From assembly GCF_002252565.1 (NCBI RefSeq), contig NZ_NPML01000004.1:124001-188000 (forward strand): a stretch of DNA of 64,000 nt, given 5' to 3'. This document shows, in pieces, positions 54,246-60,858 of the stretch (position 1 is its first letter; the number at the start of each line of letters is the position of its first letter). Made by a program: the position numbers and the translations under genes. This stretch comes from Petroclostridium xylanilyticum. Lineage in GTDB: Bacteria > Bacillota > Clostridia > SK-Y3. A model generated the notes under the pieces. It was not told where the DNA came from. It saw only the letters and a list, made by a program, of their open reading frames with translations, and did no database searches.

Positions 54246-55490
54246 ATGAACGCGGAAATCATTGCTGTAGGAACTGAATTACTCTTGGGTCAAATATTAA
54301 ATACTAATGCACAATTTTTATCCGTTGAGCTTTCAAATCTGGGAATTGATGTATATTTTCAAACGGTAGTAGGAGATAATCAGAAACGTTTGGAAGAAAC
54401 ACTGCAAACCGCACTAAAAAGGGCGGATATTGTTATTCTAACAGGCGGCCTTGGCCCTACCAAAGATGATTTAACAAAGGAAACAATTGCTCAGGTGCTA
54501 AATCTTCAGTTAAAACTTCATCAGGAAAGCTTGGATAAAATAAAAGAATTTTTTGCCAAAATGCACCGGGTGATGGCTTCCAATAATGAAAAGCAGGCTT
54601 TTCTGCCTGAGGGAAGTATAATACTGCCTAATAATAATGGAACAGCACCAGGATGTATCATCGAAAAAGACAATAACATCGTAATTATGCTTCCAGGACC
54701 ACCTAAAGAAATGCAGCCCATGTTTAAGGAATACGTATACCCTTACTTACTCAAAAAATCACCATATACGATATATTCAAAGGTATTAAGAATATTTGGC
54801 ATTGGAGAATCTTCTTTAGAGGAAAAATTGATTGATATTTTTGAAAATCAAAGTAATCCTACTATAGCTCCCTATGCAAAACAGGGTGAAGTAACTTTGA
54901 GAATCACTGCTAAATGTGAAAGCGAAGAGGTTGCAAAAGGTCTTATCGCGCCTGTTGAAGAACAAATAAGAAACCGGCTTGGGATAATGGTTTATGGGAT
55001 AGAAGAAGAAAGTTTAGAAGAGGTAACTTGTAAACTTCTTATGGAGAAAAATTTAACCCTTGCAACTGCCGAATCGTGTACAGGAGGATTACTTGCTGAA
55101 AAAATTACAAGTACACCAGGTATATCCAAATGTTTTCATACAGGTGTAGTAACGTACAGTAATGAATCGAAAGTAAATCTATTAGGAGTATCACAGGATA
55201 CTTTACAACAGTACGGAGCAGTTAGCTGCCAAACTGCGCTGGAAATGGCTAAAGGTATAAGGGAACGATCTAAAGCAGATATAGGAATTTCCATTACCGG
55301 TATTGCCGGTCCTGGGGGCGGAACCCCGCAAAAACCGGTAGGGCTTGTATATGTTGGAATGGCTACTCAACAAAAGTGCTGGTATAATGAACTGAGGCTT
55401 GTTGGGAATAGAGAAAGAATCAGAAACATAACCGTTATGAATGCTTTAGATATGTTAAGAAAATACCTTCTCACCGGTGAAACAAAGTAA
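54246..55490 (+). CDS. cinA: CinA competence/damage-inducible protein (NMN amidohydrolase family)
   Basis: A 414-residue protein. The N-terminal MoCF-biosynthesis (COG1058) domain has 'AEIIAVGTELLLGQILNTNA' and 'ILTGGLGPTKDDLTKE' (about 67-82). The C-terminal CinA deamidase domain has 'TAESCTGGLLAEKITSTPG' (about 275-293) and 'GITGIAGPGGGTPQKPVG' (about 350-366). Roles reported for relatives are NMN recycling and ADP-ribose hydrolysis; in several Firmicutes it is co-transcribed with recA. ATG 54246 with AAGGAGG is chosen over the upstream TTG at 54228. Confidence 0.93.
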   Translation: MNAEIIAVGTELLLGQILNTNAQFLSVELSNLGIDVYFQTVVGDNQKRLEETLQTALKRADIVILTGGLGPTKDDLTKETIAQVLNLQLKLHQESLDKIKEFFAKMHRVMASNNEKQAFLPEGSIILPNNNGTAPGCIIEKDNNIVIMLPGPPKEMQPMFKEYVYPYLLKKSPYTIYSKVLRIFGIGESSLEEKLIDIFENQSNPTIAPYAKQGEVTLRITAKCESEEVAKGLIAPVEEQIRNRLGIMVYGIEEESLEEVTCKLLMEKNLTLATAESCTGGLLAEKITSTPGISKCFHTGVVTYSNESKVNLLGVSQDTLQQYGAVSCQTALEMAKGIRERSKADIGISITGIAGPGGGTPQKPVGLVYVGMATQQKCWYNELRLVGNRERIRNITVMNALDMLRKYLLTGETK

Positions 55491-55496
55491 GAATTT

Positions 55497-55560
55497 AAGG
55501 CTCTAAGCCTTTTCATAACGTTCTTTTCACAACATTCATCAACTAAAAAATATATACCCA
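55497..55560 (-). repeat. Partial reversed copy of the AGGCTTAGAGCCT repeat
   Basis: The reverse strand reads GGGTATATATTTTTTAGTTG, then ATGAATGTTGTGAAAAG..., then AAGGCTTAGAGCCTT. It matches the left half of the 50080-50186 element, including TTTAGTTGATGAAT. It begins 7 bp after the cinA stop and ends just before the recA promoter. Confidence 0.6.
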
Positions 55561-55576
55561 TATTTTACAAAATTAG

Positions 55577-55623
55577 TTGACCTTTACGTGTAAATAGGAT
55601 ATAATGAATAAGAACATTTGTTC
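55577..55623 (+). promoter_or_regulatory. recA promoter with LexA (SOS) box
   Basis: TTGACC (55577-55582), 17 bp, TATAAT (55600-55605), then GAACATTTGTTC (55612-55623), a perfect match to the Gram-positive LexA pattern GAAC-N4-GTTC. The box covers the expected transcription start, so LexA would block recA until DNA damage. Confidence 0.85.
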
Positions 55624-55655
55624 TTGTGATATTAATTAATGATAAAGGCGGGAAA

Positions 55656-56693
55656 ATGATGATAGAAAAGAAAAAAGCACTAGAAATGGCTCTTAGTCAA
55701 ATTGAAAAGCAATTTGGTAAAGGAGCAATCATGAAATTGGGAGAAACCACTCATCTGAATATTGAAGCTATATCTACCGGAGCCCTCAGCCTTGACATTG
55801 CTCTTGGCGTTGGCGGAGTTCCCAGGGGAAGGATTGTAGAAGTCTTTGGCCCCGAATCCTCAGGTAAAACTACTGTCGCTTTACATGTTATAGCTGAAGC
55901 ACAAAAAGCCGGAGGGGAAGCAGCTTTTATAGATGCTGAACATGCCCTTGACCCTGTTTATGCTCAAAAGTTAGGTGTTGACATAGAAAATCTTATTGTA
56001 GCACAACCGGATACCGGAGAACAAGCGTTAGAAATTGCTGAAGCTCTTGTAAGAAGCGGTGCTATTGATGTTATTGTCATTGACTCTGTAGCTGCGTTGG
56101 TTCCAAAAGCTGAAATTGATGGGGAAATGGGAGATGCTCATGTAGGTCTGCAGGCAAGACTTATGTCTCAAGCGCTTAGAAAGCTTGCAGGAGTTATTAG
56201 CAAGTCAAAGACAACAGCTATTTTTATTAACCAATTAAGAGAAAAAGTTGGGGTAATGTTTGGTAATCCTGAGACTACTCCCGGTGGTAGGGCTCTTAAG
56301 TTCTATGCTTCTGTCCGCCTGGATGTTAGAAAGGTGGAAACCTTGAAACAAGGAAATGATATGATAGGAAACAGGACAAAAGTAAAAGTCGTAAAAAATA
56401 AAGTTGCTCCTCCCTTTAAAGAAGCAGAATTTGATATTATATATGGGCAGGGAATTTCCAGAGAAGGAAATATTCTGGATACTGGAGTAAATATTGATAT
56501 CATTAATAAAAGTGGAGCTTGGTTTTCTTATGGTGATATCAGATTGGGGCAAGGAAGAGAAAATGCAAAGCAGTATTTAAAAGAAAACCCGGAAATAGCG
56601 CAAGAAATTGAAAATAAAATTCGTGAGAATTTCAACCTGGCATTTTTAAAAAGTCTGCCATCTCCCGATAATATTATTGAAGAAGCTGAATAA
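55656..56693 (+). CDS. recA: Recombinase RecA
   Basis: A 345-residue strand-exchange protein and LexA co-protease. Walker A '[13 protein letters not shown]' near 66, 'IDAEHALDP' near 93, Walker B '[15 protein letters not shown]' near 140, '[20 protein letters not shown]' (loop L2 region) near 194, and the C-terminal acidic tail. Two adjacent ATGs exist (55656, 55659); AAAGG at 55644-55648 allows either. SOS-controlled by the box upstream. Intact. Confidence 0.98.
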
Positions 56694-56703
56694 CACATGT
56701 ATA

Positions 56704-56745
56704 ATAATGATAGCCTCTCTATAACGTAGGGAGGCTATCATTATT
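56704..56745. terminator. Long inverted repeat after recA, probable terminator
   Basis: AATAATGATAGCCTC pairs with GAGGCTATCATTATT, a 15-bp stem with a loop of about 12 bases. The right arm ends in TTATT rather than a pure T-run. Confidence 0.72.
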
Positions 56746-56827
56746 AAAGAAAATATTTAATCTTATGATGCTCTGGAGGTTGACAACAGTTAATAAAAAG
56801 TTATAAAAAGTCATAAATTAATGTTGA

Positions 56828-56856
56828 CATTTATAATTTAGTATAGTCTAATACAA
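56828..56856 (+). promoter_or_regulatory. Promoter for tnpA
   Basis: TTGACA, 17 bp, TCTAAT about 15 bp upstream of the tnpA ribosome-binding site, inside the left end of the element. Confidence 0.55.
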
Positions 56857-56871
56857 TTAGAGGTGGTTAAT

Positions 56872-57489
56872 GTGAAGTATTATACTATACATGAGTTTTC
56901 TAAATTAGTTGGAAAAACTCCTCAAACATTAAGAAACTGGGACAAAAAAGGATTACTTATTCCACATCATACAGGTGCTAATGGATATAGATATTATTCG
57001 CATGACCAATTAAAACAAGTATTAAATATTAAAGAAGATAAAAAATCAAAAGTTATTATAGGATATTGCCGAGTATCTTCGTATAAACAAAAAGACGATT
57101 TACAACGACAAGTTGAAAACATGAAATTATATTTAGACAAACAAAATAAAAATTATGAAATAATTGAAGATATAGGCAGTGGGATTAATTATACTAAAAA
57201 AGGATTAAGAACATTATTAAGAAAAATAGTCAACAATGAAGTTGAAAAAGTCGTTGTTCTTTATAAAGATAGATTGTTAAGATTTGGTTTTGAATTGGTG
57301 GAATATATATCTAATCTGTATGGATGTGAAATTGAAGTAATAGATAGTACAGAAAAAACTGAACAACAAGAACTTGTTGAAGATTTAGTGCAAATAATAA
57401 CTGTATTTTCTTGTAAACTTCAAGGTAAAAGAGCAAACAAAGCACGTAAAATGATTGAGGAGTTGACCGAAGATGATAAAGACAATTAG
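56872..57489 (+). CDS. tnpA: IS607 serine recombinase TnpA
   Basis: A 205-residue protein. An N-terminal MerR-like HTH (about 1-45: 'YYTIHEFSKLVGKTPQTLRN', 'NGYRYYS') precedes a resolvase-type catalytic domain. Catalytic Ser lies in 'IIGYCRVSSYKQKDDLQRQV' (about 62-81); 'DIGSGINYTKKGLRTLLRKI' and 'VVLYKDRLLRFGFELVEYI' carry the conserved Arg/Asp residues. This order (HTH first) is typical of IS607 enzymes. GTG 56872 follows AGAGGTGGTTAAT; GTG 56863 lies inside that site. It overlaps tnpB by 17 bases. It appears intact. Confidence 0.92.
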   Translation: MKYYTIHEFSKLVGKTPQTLRNWDKKGLLIPHHTGANGYRYYSHDQLKQVLNIKEDKKSKVIIGYCRVSSYKQKDDLQRQVENMKLYLDKQNKNYEIIEDIGSGINYTKKGLRTLLRKIVNNEVEKVVVLYKDRLLRFGFELVEYISNLYGCEIEVIDSTEKTEQQELVEDLVQIITVFSCKLQGKRANKARKMIEELTEDDKDN

Positions 57490-58687
57490 AGTACAATTAT
57501 TACCTAACAATAAACAAAAGACTTTATTAAAGAAATGTGCAGATGTAGCACGATGGGCTTATAATTGGGCTTTATCTAAGCAATTAGAAAATTTTAAAAA
57601 CGGTGGCAAGTTTATAAACGATGAAGAGTTAAGAAAGGAACTAACACAACTAAAGAAAAATCCTGAATATAATTGGTTAAATGAAGTTTCAGCACAAATA
57701 CCAAAACAAGCAATAAAGGATTTATGCATAGCTTATAAAAACTTTTTCAGAATAGAAAATAAACATTATTCTGAAAAAACTAAGAAAAAAGCATTAAGAC
57801 AAGGTAGACAATTGACAGTTTATGATTTAGAAGGACATCCAAAATTTAAAAGCAAAAAAGATGTACAACAAGGGTTTTATCACAGAGAAGATTTAGGACA
57901 TTTAAAATTTAAAGGTGATAAAGTAAAACTTGAAAAGATAGGATGGATTAAACTATCTGAAAATAGAATCGAATTACAAACAGCGGAAAAATTTTATAAT
58001 CCAAGAATAAAATTTGATGGTTTTAATTGGTTTATAACCGTAAGTATTGATTATAAACCTACCAACAACCAAAAGTATTCAGATGGAATAGGCATTGACT
58101 TAGGAGTTAAAGATTTAGCAGTAATTAATGATGGTAGAAAAATACCTAATATTAATAAGAGTCAAGAAATAAGAAGATTAAATAAAAAATTAAAAAGACT
58201 CCAACGTAAATTATCAAGAAAATATGAAAAACAAAAAGAAGGAGGTGTAAACCGTTATAAGAAAACTAAAAACATTATTAAGTTGGAGTGCCTTATTCGT
58301 AAAGTCCATAAAAAAATAAAAGACATTCGTACAAATTATTTACATCAAGAAACTGCTAAACTGGTGAAAGCCAAGCCAGAGTTTGTGTGTATGGAAAATT
58401 TAAATATTAAAGGTATGGTTAAAAACCATAAATTAGCAAAATCCGTACAAGAACAAATGTTTAGCGAGTTTCGTAGAATAATGGAATATAAATGTAAATG
58501 GAATCATATTAGGTTTATAGTAGCAGACAGGTATTATCCATCAAGCAAGACATGTAGTGAATGTGGATATATTTTAGATAAGATGTCTTTATCAACAAGA
58601 AAATGGGTGTGTCCTGAATGTGGAATAATGCATGACAGAGATATAAATGCAGCTATAAATCTAATGAAATATGGAAAATCAGCATAA
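57473..58687 (+). CDS. tnpB: RNA-guided nuclease TnpB (OrfB)
   Basis: A 404-residue protein, a normal TnpB length. The N-terminal OrfB HTH/wedge region is 'ARWAYNWALSKQLENF'. The RuvC-like catalytic residues are complete: Asp in 'GIGIDLGVKDLAVINDG' (about 204-220), Glu in 'FVCMENLNIKGMV' (about 304-316) and Asp in 'MHDRDINAAINL' (about 386-397). The zinc finger 'CSECGY...CPECG' lies between the last two (about 362-384). TnpB cuts DNA guided by an omega-RNA made from the element's right end, favouring IS retention. Looks active. Confidence 0.93.
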   Translation: MIKTIRVQLLPNNKQKTLLKKCADVARWAYNWALSKQLENFKNGGKFINDEELRKELTQLKKNPEYNWLNEVSAQIPKQAIKDLCIAYKNFFRIENKHYSEKTKKKALRQGRQLTVYDLEGHPKFKSKKDVQQGFYHREDLGHLKFKGDKVKLEKIGWIKLSENRIELQTAEKFYNPRIKFDGFNWFITVSIDYKPTNNQKYSDGIGIDLGVKDLAVINDGRKIPNINKSQEIRRLNKKLKRLQRKLSRKYEKQKEGGVNRYKKTKNIIKLECLIRKVHKKIKDIRTNYLHQETAKLVKAKPEFVCMENLNIKGMVKNHKLAKSVQEQMFSEFRRIMEYKCKWNHIRFIVADRYYPSSKTCSECGYILDKMSLSTRKWVCPECGIMHDRDINAAINLMKYGKSA

Positions 58688-58875
58688 TTCACTTAACGAA
58701 TTATGTTGGTATGTACGGTGTCGTTACATCGGAATTTAAGCCTTTGGAGAGTCATACCAAACGCAAGTAGGATTCCGAAAGCGGACTCTATGAATAAGGA
58801 AAAGAACATAAAAGTTATAAATTTTATAACTTTTTATAAGTTTCTTATAACGGTTCAGGTAAATGATTATTACTT
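58640..58875 (+). ncRNA. Probable omega-RNA (TnpB guide RNA) region at the right end of IS607
   Basis: The tnpB 3' end and the 172-bp non-coding tail hold several helices. TTGGTATG (about 58705) pairs with CATACCAA (about 58754), CGGAAT (about 58731) with ATTCCG (about 58773), AGAGTC (about 58748) with GACTCT (about 58785), and TCCG-AAAG-CGGA forms a local hairpin; some are mutually exclusive or pseudoknotted. Known omega-RNAs end at the element boundary, with the guide copied from the flank; here that flank would be TAAATGATTATTACTTC, the recX start. Limits are approximate. Confidence 0.55.
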
Positions 58876-59495
58876 CAGCCGAGACACAAAAAAACAATTC
58901 AAATAGGATATCGGTGTATGTTGATGGAAAATATCATTTTAGTATTGATGAAGAGGATTGGTTTAGGTTAAACTTATATGTGGGAAAAGAAATCAGTGAA
59001 AAAGAAATAAAAGAGATAAATGAAACTCGCAGCTTTTCAAGGGCAAAAAAGATAGCAATTAAATTTAGTATATTTAAGAAACGTACTGAATTTGAAGTCA
59101 AAACCAAATTGAAACAGTCGGGATTTGATGGATCTACTATTGAAAAGGTAATACGTGAACTTAAGGTATTGCAATATATTGACGACACAACGTATACTGA
59201 AAAATATATTAAAGATGCACTAAATTTAAAAAAAATTGGTATTCATAGAATAAATGTTGAATTGCAAAGAAAGGGTGTTGATGAAGCCATCATCCAAAAC
59301 CAGTTATCTAAATTGGAAGTTAATGAAACACAGAGATTAAAACCTCTTTTGCAAAAAAAATTAACTTCTGTTAAAACAATAGATGAAAAGTCTTTAAACA
59401 AAATAAAAAATTATTTTATAGGAAAAGGATATGATTTAAATGTTATCAATCAAAGTATAAAAGACATACTTAGTGCAACTGAAGAAAAAATTTAG
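58863..59495 (+). CDS. recX: Regulatory protein RecX
   Basis: A 210-residue helical protein that inhibits or modulates RecA filaments. RecX three-helix repeats are recognisable: 'ETRSFSRAKKIAIKFSIFKK' (about 56-75), 'KRTEFEVKTKLKQSGFDGST', 'YIDDTTYTEKYIKDALNLKK' and 'KIGIHRINVELQRKGVDEAI'. The ATG is only 3 bp after the IS607 right edge and now lacks a good ribosome-binding site; only CAGG remains. It is separated by 2.1 kb from its usual partner recA, so expression may be reduced or now driven by the IS. Confidence 0.88.
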   Translation: MIITSAETQKNNSNRISVYVDGKYHFSIDEEDWFRLNLYVGKEISEKEIKEINETRSFSRAKKIAIKFSIFKKRTEFEVKTKLKQSGFDGSTIEKVIRELKVLQYIDDTTYTEKYIKDALNLKKIGIHRINVELQRKGVDEAIIQNQLSKLEVNETQRLKPLLQKKLTSVKTIDEKSLNKIKNYFIGKGYDLNVINQSIKDILSATEEKI

Positions 59496-59511
59496 GCAGA
59501 AAGAAGGGATG

Positions 59512-60858
59512 ATGTTGAAATATAAGATTGGTGTTGTATCTCTCGGTTGTGCAAAAAATCTTGTTGATACGGAAGTAATGCTGGGATTATTGTCTAAAGA
59601 AGGGTTTGGCATTACCAACGATCCTGCAGCAGCCGATATATTAATCGTTAATACCTGTGGTTTTATAGAGTCTGCTAAACAGGAATCAATTGAAAATATC
59701 TTAGAGTTGGCAAGATATAAAGAAGTCGGTTCCTGTAAGTTATTAATTGTCACTGGATGTCTGGCAGAACGCTATAAAGATGAAGTCGTCAAAGAAATTC
59801 CTGAAGTGGATGCTGTAGTAGGGACAGGCAACTATCACGAAATTGCAGAAGTAATAGGTGAGGCATTTAAGGGCAGCAAAGTATTAAAATATGGAAATCC
59901 AGACTATACGCCTGAAGAAGGGTTACCCCGGTTCCAAAGTACTCCTTCCTACACTGCATATTTAAAGATATCCGATGGGTGTGATAACCATTGCACATAT
60001 TGCATTATTCCAAAACTAAGAGGAAAGTATCGGAGTAGAACCATTGAAGATGTAGCAACTGAAGCCAGACAGCTTTCTGAGCAGGGGGTCAAAGAATTAA
60101 TTATTATTGCACAGGATACTACCCGCTATGGGATGGATATATATGGTGAGCACAAGCTTCATGAGCTGTTAAATGAACTGTGCAGAATTGAGAATATAAA
60201 ATGGCTCCGGTTGCATTACTGCTATCCGGAAGATATCACTGAAGAACTTATTGAGACAATTGCTGCACAGGAGAAGGTTTGCAATTACCTTGACATTCCT
60301 ATTCAACACAGCAGTAATTATATCTTAAAAAAAATGGGAAGAAGAGGTACACGGGAAAAGTTAATTGATTTGCTGAGCAGGATTAGGAGCAGGATTCCTG
60401 ATGTGGCAATAAGGACCTCTATTATCGTCGGTTTTCCCGGGGAATCAGAACAGCATTTTAAAGAACTTGAGGAATTTATTCAGGATATTAAATTCGATAG
60501 AATGGGAGTTTTTAAATATTCCCAGGAAGAAGATACACCGGCTGCCGAATTTGAAGGACAAGTCAGTGAAGAAGTCAAACAGCAAAGATATGAAAGGCTT
60601 ATGTACTTGCAAAGCAAAATTTCAAAAGAAATTAACCAAAACAAAATTAACAAACTCTATGAAGTACTGGTAGAGGGATATGATGGTAAAACCAATTGCT
60701 ATTATGGACGTACCTATGCCGATTCCATAGATATAGACGGTAAGGTATTTTTTAATAGTAAAACAACTTTAAAACCTGGTGATTTCGTGAAGGTTTTAGT
60801 AAAAAAAGCCGTTAATTATGACTTAATAGGGGAGATCTCAAATGAATCTTGCAAATAA
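59512..60858 (+). CDS. rimO: Ribosomal protein S12 methylthiotransferase RimO
   Basis: A 448-residue enzyme methylthiolating Asp of S12. The MTTase N-terminal domain has three cluster cysteines ('SLGCAKNLVDTEVML', 'VNTCGFIESAKQESIE', 'VTGCLAERYKDEV'). The radical-SAM core has CDNHCTYC near 158, then 'IAQDTTRYG' and 'IVGFPGESEQHFKELEEF', and ends in a TRAM domain. The start is uncertain: ATG 59509, ATG 59512 and TTG 59515 follow AGAAGGG closely; 59512 is a compromise. The stop overlaps pgsA by 17 bases. Confidence 0.94.
   Translation: MLKYKIGVVSLGCAKNLVDTEVMLGLLSKEGFGITNDPAAADILIVNTCGFIESAKQESIENILELARYKEVGSCKLLIVTGCLAERYKDEVVKEIPEVDAVVGTGNYHEIAEVIGEAFKGSKVLKYGNPDYTPEEGLPRFQSTPSYTAYLKISDGCDNHCTYCIIPKLRGKYRSRTIEDVATEARQLSEQGVKELIIIAQDTTRYGMDIYGEHKLHELLNELCRIENIKWLRLHYCYPEDITEELIETIAAQEKVCNYLDIPIQHSSNYILKKMGRRGTREKLIDLLSRIRSRIPDVAIRTSIIVGFPGESEQHFKELEEFIQDIKFDRMGVFKYSQEEDTPAAEFEGQVSEEVKQQRYERLMYLQSKISKEINQNKINKLYEVLVEGYDGKTNCYYGRTYADSIDIDGKVFFNSKTTLKPGDFVKVLVKKAVNYDLIGEISNESCK

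Follow-up and report, generated by a model that had tools for sequence, protein, structure and literature searches.

An IS607-family element carrying TnpB and a RAGATH-18 guide RNA separates recX from its Shine-Dalgarno sequence in Petroclostridium xylanilyticum and belongs to a lineage found mainly before start codons

The recX gene of Petroclostridium xylanilyticum is interrupted upstream by an apparently intact element of the IS607 family, 2,074 base pairs (bp) long, which sits inside the Shine-Dalgarno (SD) sequence of this gene. The element occupies positions 56780-58853 of the 64,000-nucleotide stretch of contig NZ_NPML01000004.1 analyzed here (hereafter the window), and it carries the transposase TnpA, the RNA-guided endonuclease TnpB, and a RAGATH-18 guide RNA. 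Copies and relatives of this element, in the same genome and in others, are mostly placed directly before start codons. We consider it likely that the recX insertion represents an IS607-family lineage that lands mainly in SD sequences and is kept there through TnpB.

The ends of the element were set by comparing the copies present in this genome. On the left side, the GG at 56778-56779 is followed by TTGACAACAG (56780 onward), an edge confirmed by the other copies. On the right side, the seven right ends of the main type observed in this genome (the window, L002-L006, and L008) all display a common sequence up to CTTATAACGG and diverge directly after it. This stop point places the right edge at TTATAACGG (58852-58853), and BLAST matches of the other copies end at or near 58853. 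A preliminary description of this DNA had taken GG followed by T, at 56778-56780 and 58858-58860, as the two edges. Those letters are present at both places, as well as at 58852-58854, and the left edge stands; the right edge was placed 6 bp off, since 58858-58859 is host sequence at which no other right end seen in this genome stops. Removal of 56780-58853 yields CTCTGGAGGTTCAGGTAAATG, in which GGAGG is followed by a 9-nucleotide (nt) spacer. We reconstruct the empty site as CTCTGGAGG-TTCAGGTAA-ATG, with one GG at the junction. The element does separate a consensus SD from the recX ATG (58863), as had been proposed, with a junction spacer of 9 nt rather than 4 nt. GGAGG is present 8, 8, 8, and 9 nt upstream of recX in four of the five family relatives that were compared (G001, G002, G003, and G004), which fits the 9-nt spacer and not the 4-nt one. 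The fifth relative (G005) displays GGTGG, and none of the five has a RAGATH-18 match. The preliminary description was literally correct in that only CAGG precedes the recX ATG now (AACGGTTCAGGTAAATG).

The gene content of the element agrees with the recombinase family first suggested for it. On the forward strand, like the neighboring genes and the other parts given coordinates here, tnpA (56863-57489) encodes a serine recombinase transposase with an N-terminal MerR-type helix-turn-helix (NF033518, 218 bits against a cut-off of 110; PF00239 and PF00376). GG is found at both junctions without target duplication: the left crossover dinucleotide is the last GG of GGAGG (56778-56779), and the right one is the GG at 58852-58853. 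The tnpB gene (57473-58687) encodes a protein of the TnpB family (NF040570, 295.8 bits against a cut-off of 100; PF07282, PF01385, and PF12323 above cut-off), whose best sequence match in the PDB is 8iaz_A, an entry of ISFba1 TnpB. Directly 3′ of tnpB, and ending near the right end of the element, lies a RAGATH-18 RNA (58741-58801; RF03064, 69.3 bits, gathering threshold 44.9), the core of the TnpB guide RNA (reRNA), in the arrangement of RAGATH-18 TnpB (OMEGA) systems. The right end itself (58802-58853) displays a conserved TTATAAG...AACGG terminus. Near the left end, an arm at 56785-56817 is matched by a partner arm at 58823-58855, forming a subterminal, AT-rich, imperfect inverted repeat. 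Past the right end, the predicted guide segment of the reRNA (58854-58873) would comprise about 20 nt of host DNA, namely the recX spacer and first codons, judging from the 20-nt guide described in PMC11061315. The tnpB gene also contains, at 58241-58281, a GGAGG with an inverted repeat of the right-end terminus after it.

Several further copies of the element occur in the same genome. After six of its seven main-type right ends, the start codon of an open reading frame (ORF) of at least 60 amino acids follows within 7-9 nt. The genes in question are recX, cysS, an SDR oxidoreductase, a YifB-type ATPase, recD2, and an aminopeptidase-like protein (the last assigned below model cut-offs); recD2 has a TTG start, and the left flank of its copy is without GGAGG. 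Among six relatives examined at cysS, four have GGAGG before the start (G001, G002, G003, and G006), and G004 has GGAG. A T-box leader is present at L003:306-521, roughly 1 kb before the element copy that lies between cysS and its SD. A second, diverged subfamily occupies two more sites in this genome, one of them before murD. Three copies at different sites (L004, L005, and L006, on contigs C19, C11, and C13) have a common internal deletion of tnpA and, for this reason, probably moved in trans. In L004, this deletion is 231 bp long, in frame, and takes out the YCRVSS stretch, in which the catalytic serine presumably lies. One further copy is probably broken across two contigs, as C6 has only a left end and C7 (1-622) only a right end.

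The same placement was found across genomes. For this comparison, we used 12 genomes, identified via the loci, and a right-end pattern that leaves the downstream base free. It matched 34 right ends, distributed over 11 genomes; the twelfth (G399) had no match, and the reversed control pattern had none in the same 12 genomes. An ORF of at least 60 amino acids starts 3-14 nt downstream of 30 of the 34 right ends, most often at 7 nt (15 of 30). By genome, this was the case for 13 of 13 right ends in Alkalithermobacter thermoalcaliphilus JW-YL-7, 7 of 10 in Selenomonas ruminantium ATCC 12561, and 0 of 1 in one genome. A wider set, overlapping the first, comprised right ends with a RAGATH-like motif at most 260 nt upstream, each 60-nt context being entered once (49 rows): 39 of these were located before a start codon, versus 494 of 5,440 random positions. 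JW-YL-7 right ends L075 and L082 are one base off the pattern of the wider set and were counted in the set of 34 only. In samples of three genomes, the start-codon criterion held for 6-16% of random positions, 11-20% of GG, 26-35% of GGAGG, and 39-44% of AGGAGG sites. Compared with the 6-16% obtained for random positions, the 30 of 34 and 39 of 49 right ends show a placement at start codons that is beyond chance. Genes hit in the set of 34 include glmM, ftsY, murI, nusB, coaBC, rlmB, ribE, and sucD, while murD (same genome as the window) and smc (wider set) were hit outside it. Targets were named by NCBIfam models above cut-off, cysS, glmM, ftsY, murI, nusB, murD, coaBC, smc, recD2, and ribE among them.

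These counts bear on the model implicit in the preliminary description, that of a single chance insertion with a preference for GG only, which happened to fall on the SD of recX. IS607 is known to use GG, and 464 kb of sequence offer 40,298 GG sites on both strands; however, the 11-20% of GG sites that lie before a start codon contradict this model when set against 30 of 34 right ends, and we regard it as extremely improbable. The position between SD and start codon was correctly described; the preliminary description did not mention that this placement is systematic for the lineage, nor the RAGATH-18 guide RNA.

Of 52 contexts, 34 yielded a left end, and 30 of these left ends are main-type (the left-end count includes L055, which appears in neither right-end count). 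Among the left flanks of these 30 elements, GGAGG occurs 20 times and GGGGG and AGAGG three times each, while the remaining four are other G-rich words; that of the window is TGGAGG. RAGATH-18 RNAs have been described as the guide RNA core in a group of IS607 TnpBs, for which the target-adjacent motif (TAM) among 22 strains was AGGAG (18 strains) or GAGGG (4 strains) (PMC11061315). The published AGGAG motif resembles the SD core and matches the predominant GGAGG flank. The GGAGG at 56775-56779, the SD core of recX that is now apart from its start codon, is also the putative TAM of the window TnpB, as judged from the flanks.

In the simplest model, TnpB would take part in the retention of these insertions, in the following manner. 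TnpA would join the excised element to a genomic GG without duplication, as is known for IS607. The reRNA, produced from the 3′ portion of the element, would take the host sequence past the right end as its guide, which at this locus comprises the spacer and first codons of recX. Going by published TnpB behavior, the nuclease would cut a re-formed empty site bearing GGAGG, leading to repair from an element-holding copy, and the occupied site would be immune, with AACGG instead of GGAGG. Insertions would thus be retained at GGAGG while those in reading frames would be purged, and most of the GGAGG sites left in these genomes would be ribosome-binding sites. The expected outcome is an element between SD and start codon, oriented as the gene.

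A similar outcome could arise if TnpA itself had evolved a preference for GGAGG targets, TnpB having no part in site choice. The 20 GGAGG flanks among the 30 main-type elements are compatible with this, and so is the location, mostly at such sites, of copies with internal deletions in tnpA (L004-L006) or in tnpB (JW-YL-7), on which a common enzyme probably acted in trans. Yet the IS607 TnpA was reported to prefer only (G)GG in Escherichia coli, with no further sequence relation in the account of PMC6188088, and AGGAG was described as read directly by RAGATH-18 TnpBs (PMC11061315). The JW-YL-7 copies (L075-L084, L086, L056, and L149) argue in the same direction: 9 of the 12 with both ends found are only 1.1-1.3 kb long and seem to carry internal tnpB deletions, but the guide RNA region and right end were kept despite the damage to tnpB. 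We consider site choice by TnpA without TnpB unlikely.

Retention at SD sequences through TnpB also has observations weighing against it. Four of the 34 and 10 of the 49 right ends are not before a start codon, the ten misses of the wider set being L002, L057, L063, L065, L132, L141, and four ATGCAACGG sites. L002 has GGAGG on its left, but the downstream frame is open across the junction, without start-codon placement, and this copy may be located in the first codons of a gene. The left flank of L006 is TAGGG followed by A, not GGAGG. In the related subfamily with right end ATGCAACGG (L174-L177; genomes G188 and G282), none of four right ends is before a start codon although two of four left flanks are GGAGG; the open flanking frames suggest insertions within genes, and no group I intron was found there. 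In addition, conservation of the TAM-reading residues of ISFba1 TnpB was mostly absent: of the base-reading K80, K83, N121, and N122, the window TnpB retains an equivalent of K83 alone (with an inferred numbering offset of 3). Since three of the four differ, the TAM of the window TnpB was derived from the flanks and not from the residues. Finally, the enrichment at SDs beyond GGAGG targeting and purging of ORF insertions is modest. As 58-71% of non-ORF GGAGG sites are SD-like, filtering for GGAGG together with this purging is nearly sufficient; the 13 of 13 in JW-YL-7 are just mildly above the non-ORF GGAGG expectation (p about 0.012).

Occupation of these sites weakens the predicted pairing with the anti-SD. 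We compared occupied sites with empty ones, obtained by joining the flanks in silico, at 25 sites that have a start codon and a recognized left flank with GGGG or GAGG (sites such as L006 were excluded). The mean changed from -10.3 kcal/mol for the empty sites, a value biased towards strong SDs by the choice of flanks, to -4.1 kcal/mol for the occupied ones. Pairing was weaker post-insertion at each of the 25 sites, with Caloramator L058 retaining most of it, and changed from -10.0 to -4.7 kcal/mol at recX (58863-59495), whose start codon lies 9 nt past the right end. Reduced translation of recX after insertion, as first proposed, is plausible in view of these predicted energies. The native SD of recX is lost, and its expression is probably lowered rather than abolished; the occurrence of this arrangement at cysS and glmM, present as single full-length copies, argues against complete loss.

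The genes cysS, glmM, ftsY, murI, coaBC, and murD are held to be essential. Copy number was checked for cysS and glmM, and each has one full-length copy in its genome. Because these are single full-length copies of genes taken as essential, their translation must continue; a weak leader, a promoter pointing out of the element, or excision in a subset of the cells could account for this.

The right end might itself drive the downstream gene, either from an outward-facing promoter that leaves a very short leader or through an SD-free leader, so that SD insertions would be tolerated or favored. The presence among the targets of genes generally held essential is in line with this, as is a promoter motif carried by seven of the nine distinct right-end sequences of JW-YL-7 (TTGACA or TTGATA, 17 nt, TATAAG, ending 13 nt before the edge). 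In the two JW-YL-7 right ends tested, the promoter score was reached by 0.25% and 3.9% of single-base shuffles, which preserve base composition only. Conversely, the promoter of the window right end is no better than chance (34% of shuffles reach its score), and the Selenomonas right ends have no good -35. A universal outward promoter was rejected on these grounds, as only the JW-YL-7 copies look good, and we consider it rather unlikely that the right end supplies this expression. A hairpin linking the start codon to an AAGGAA farther upstream was likewise rejected, as nine single-sequence folds gave differing pairings and no consistent exposed SD.

Excision from the mRNA by a group I intron would rejoin SD and start codon, as in an IStron. 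Group B IStrons (BcISt1, SrISt1, and CbISt) are similar to our element in their IS607-type ORFs, GG-ending insertion sites, U after the junction, and CGG 3′ end; they differ by their self-splicing group I intron (PMC4227781). No Rfam group I intron was detected in the window at 55400-59600 with E-values up to 1, nor at the gathering threshold in 18 loci, and just 83 bp separate the left end from tnpA. Both IStron splicing and a Group B IStron identity were rejected for lack of such an intron between the left end and the ORFs, and we give splicing next to no credence. In the same 18 loci, RAGATH-18 reached gathering score in 16, with no such match in L061 and L068. Among IStron sites with gene predictions, 118 of 202 (58%) were reported as intragenic (PMC4227781).

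The upstream neighbor of the element is recA (55656-56693; TIGR02012, 588 bits). In the spacer that follows, a hairpin with 20-nt arms, 95% complementary, is found at 56702-56746, and relative G001 displays a similar hairpin sequence. The recA-recX spacer of G003 (L021) is much longer, as if holding a different insert of roughly 170 bp.

Among known systems, the closest are ISFba1 and its relatives, with IS607 TnpBs guided by RAGATH-18, which share the combination of TnpA, TnpB, and RAGATH-18 reRNA; their purine-rich TAM (AGGAG or GAGGG; PMC11061315) has a putative counterpart in the left flanks of our lineage. They are set apart by the genomic placement at SDs, described here for the present lineage: a term search of the main text of PMC11061315 returned no Shine, ribosome, RBS, start codon, or insertion site. 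IS607 of Helicobacter pylori, IS1535, and ISC1926 also have a serine transposase, GG crossover, and no target duplication, but the targets reported for IS607 in PMC6188088 are (G)GG only, and that account, as far as consulted, mentions no SD preference. ISXfa1 resembles our element in its IS607 TnpB and in a reRNA that extends past the right end, with a fixed flanking nucleotide as scaffold, and differs in its TAM, described as GGG (PMC10711439). In searches of the open-licence PMC literature, we found no link of this type of RAGATH-18/IS607 element to ribosome-binding sites, nor of AGGAG to the SD core. IS607, TnpB, RAGATH-18, and the AGGAG TAM are already known; what appears to be new is the genome-wide SD placement of a member of the IS607/RAGATH-18 TnpB group.

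A broader proposal would be that the SD core serves as a genome-wide landing pad, that the nuclease holds the lineage at gene starts, and that the right end replaces the ribosome-binding site with an SD-independent leader or near-leaderless transcript, so that even essential genes can be occupied. We advance this tentatively, as a possible but somewhat doubtful extension. If true, insertion would rewire the translation of many unrelated genes and kill none of them.

These findings have implications for the understanding of both TnpB and translation. AGGAG, reported so far as a cleavage and editing rule, often coincides with the ribosome-binding site in these genomes, and retention through TnpB would thereby be tied to the genomic destination of the transposon. 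The occupied sites also amount to dozens of experiments of nature: in each, a single gene, in some cases one held essential, is stripped of its SD by one clean insertion, making the extent of SD-free translation in Firmicutes testable.
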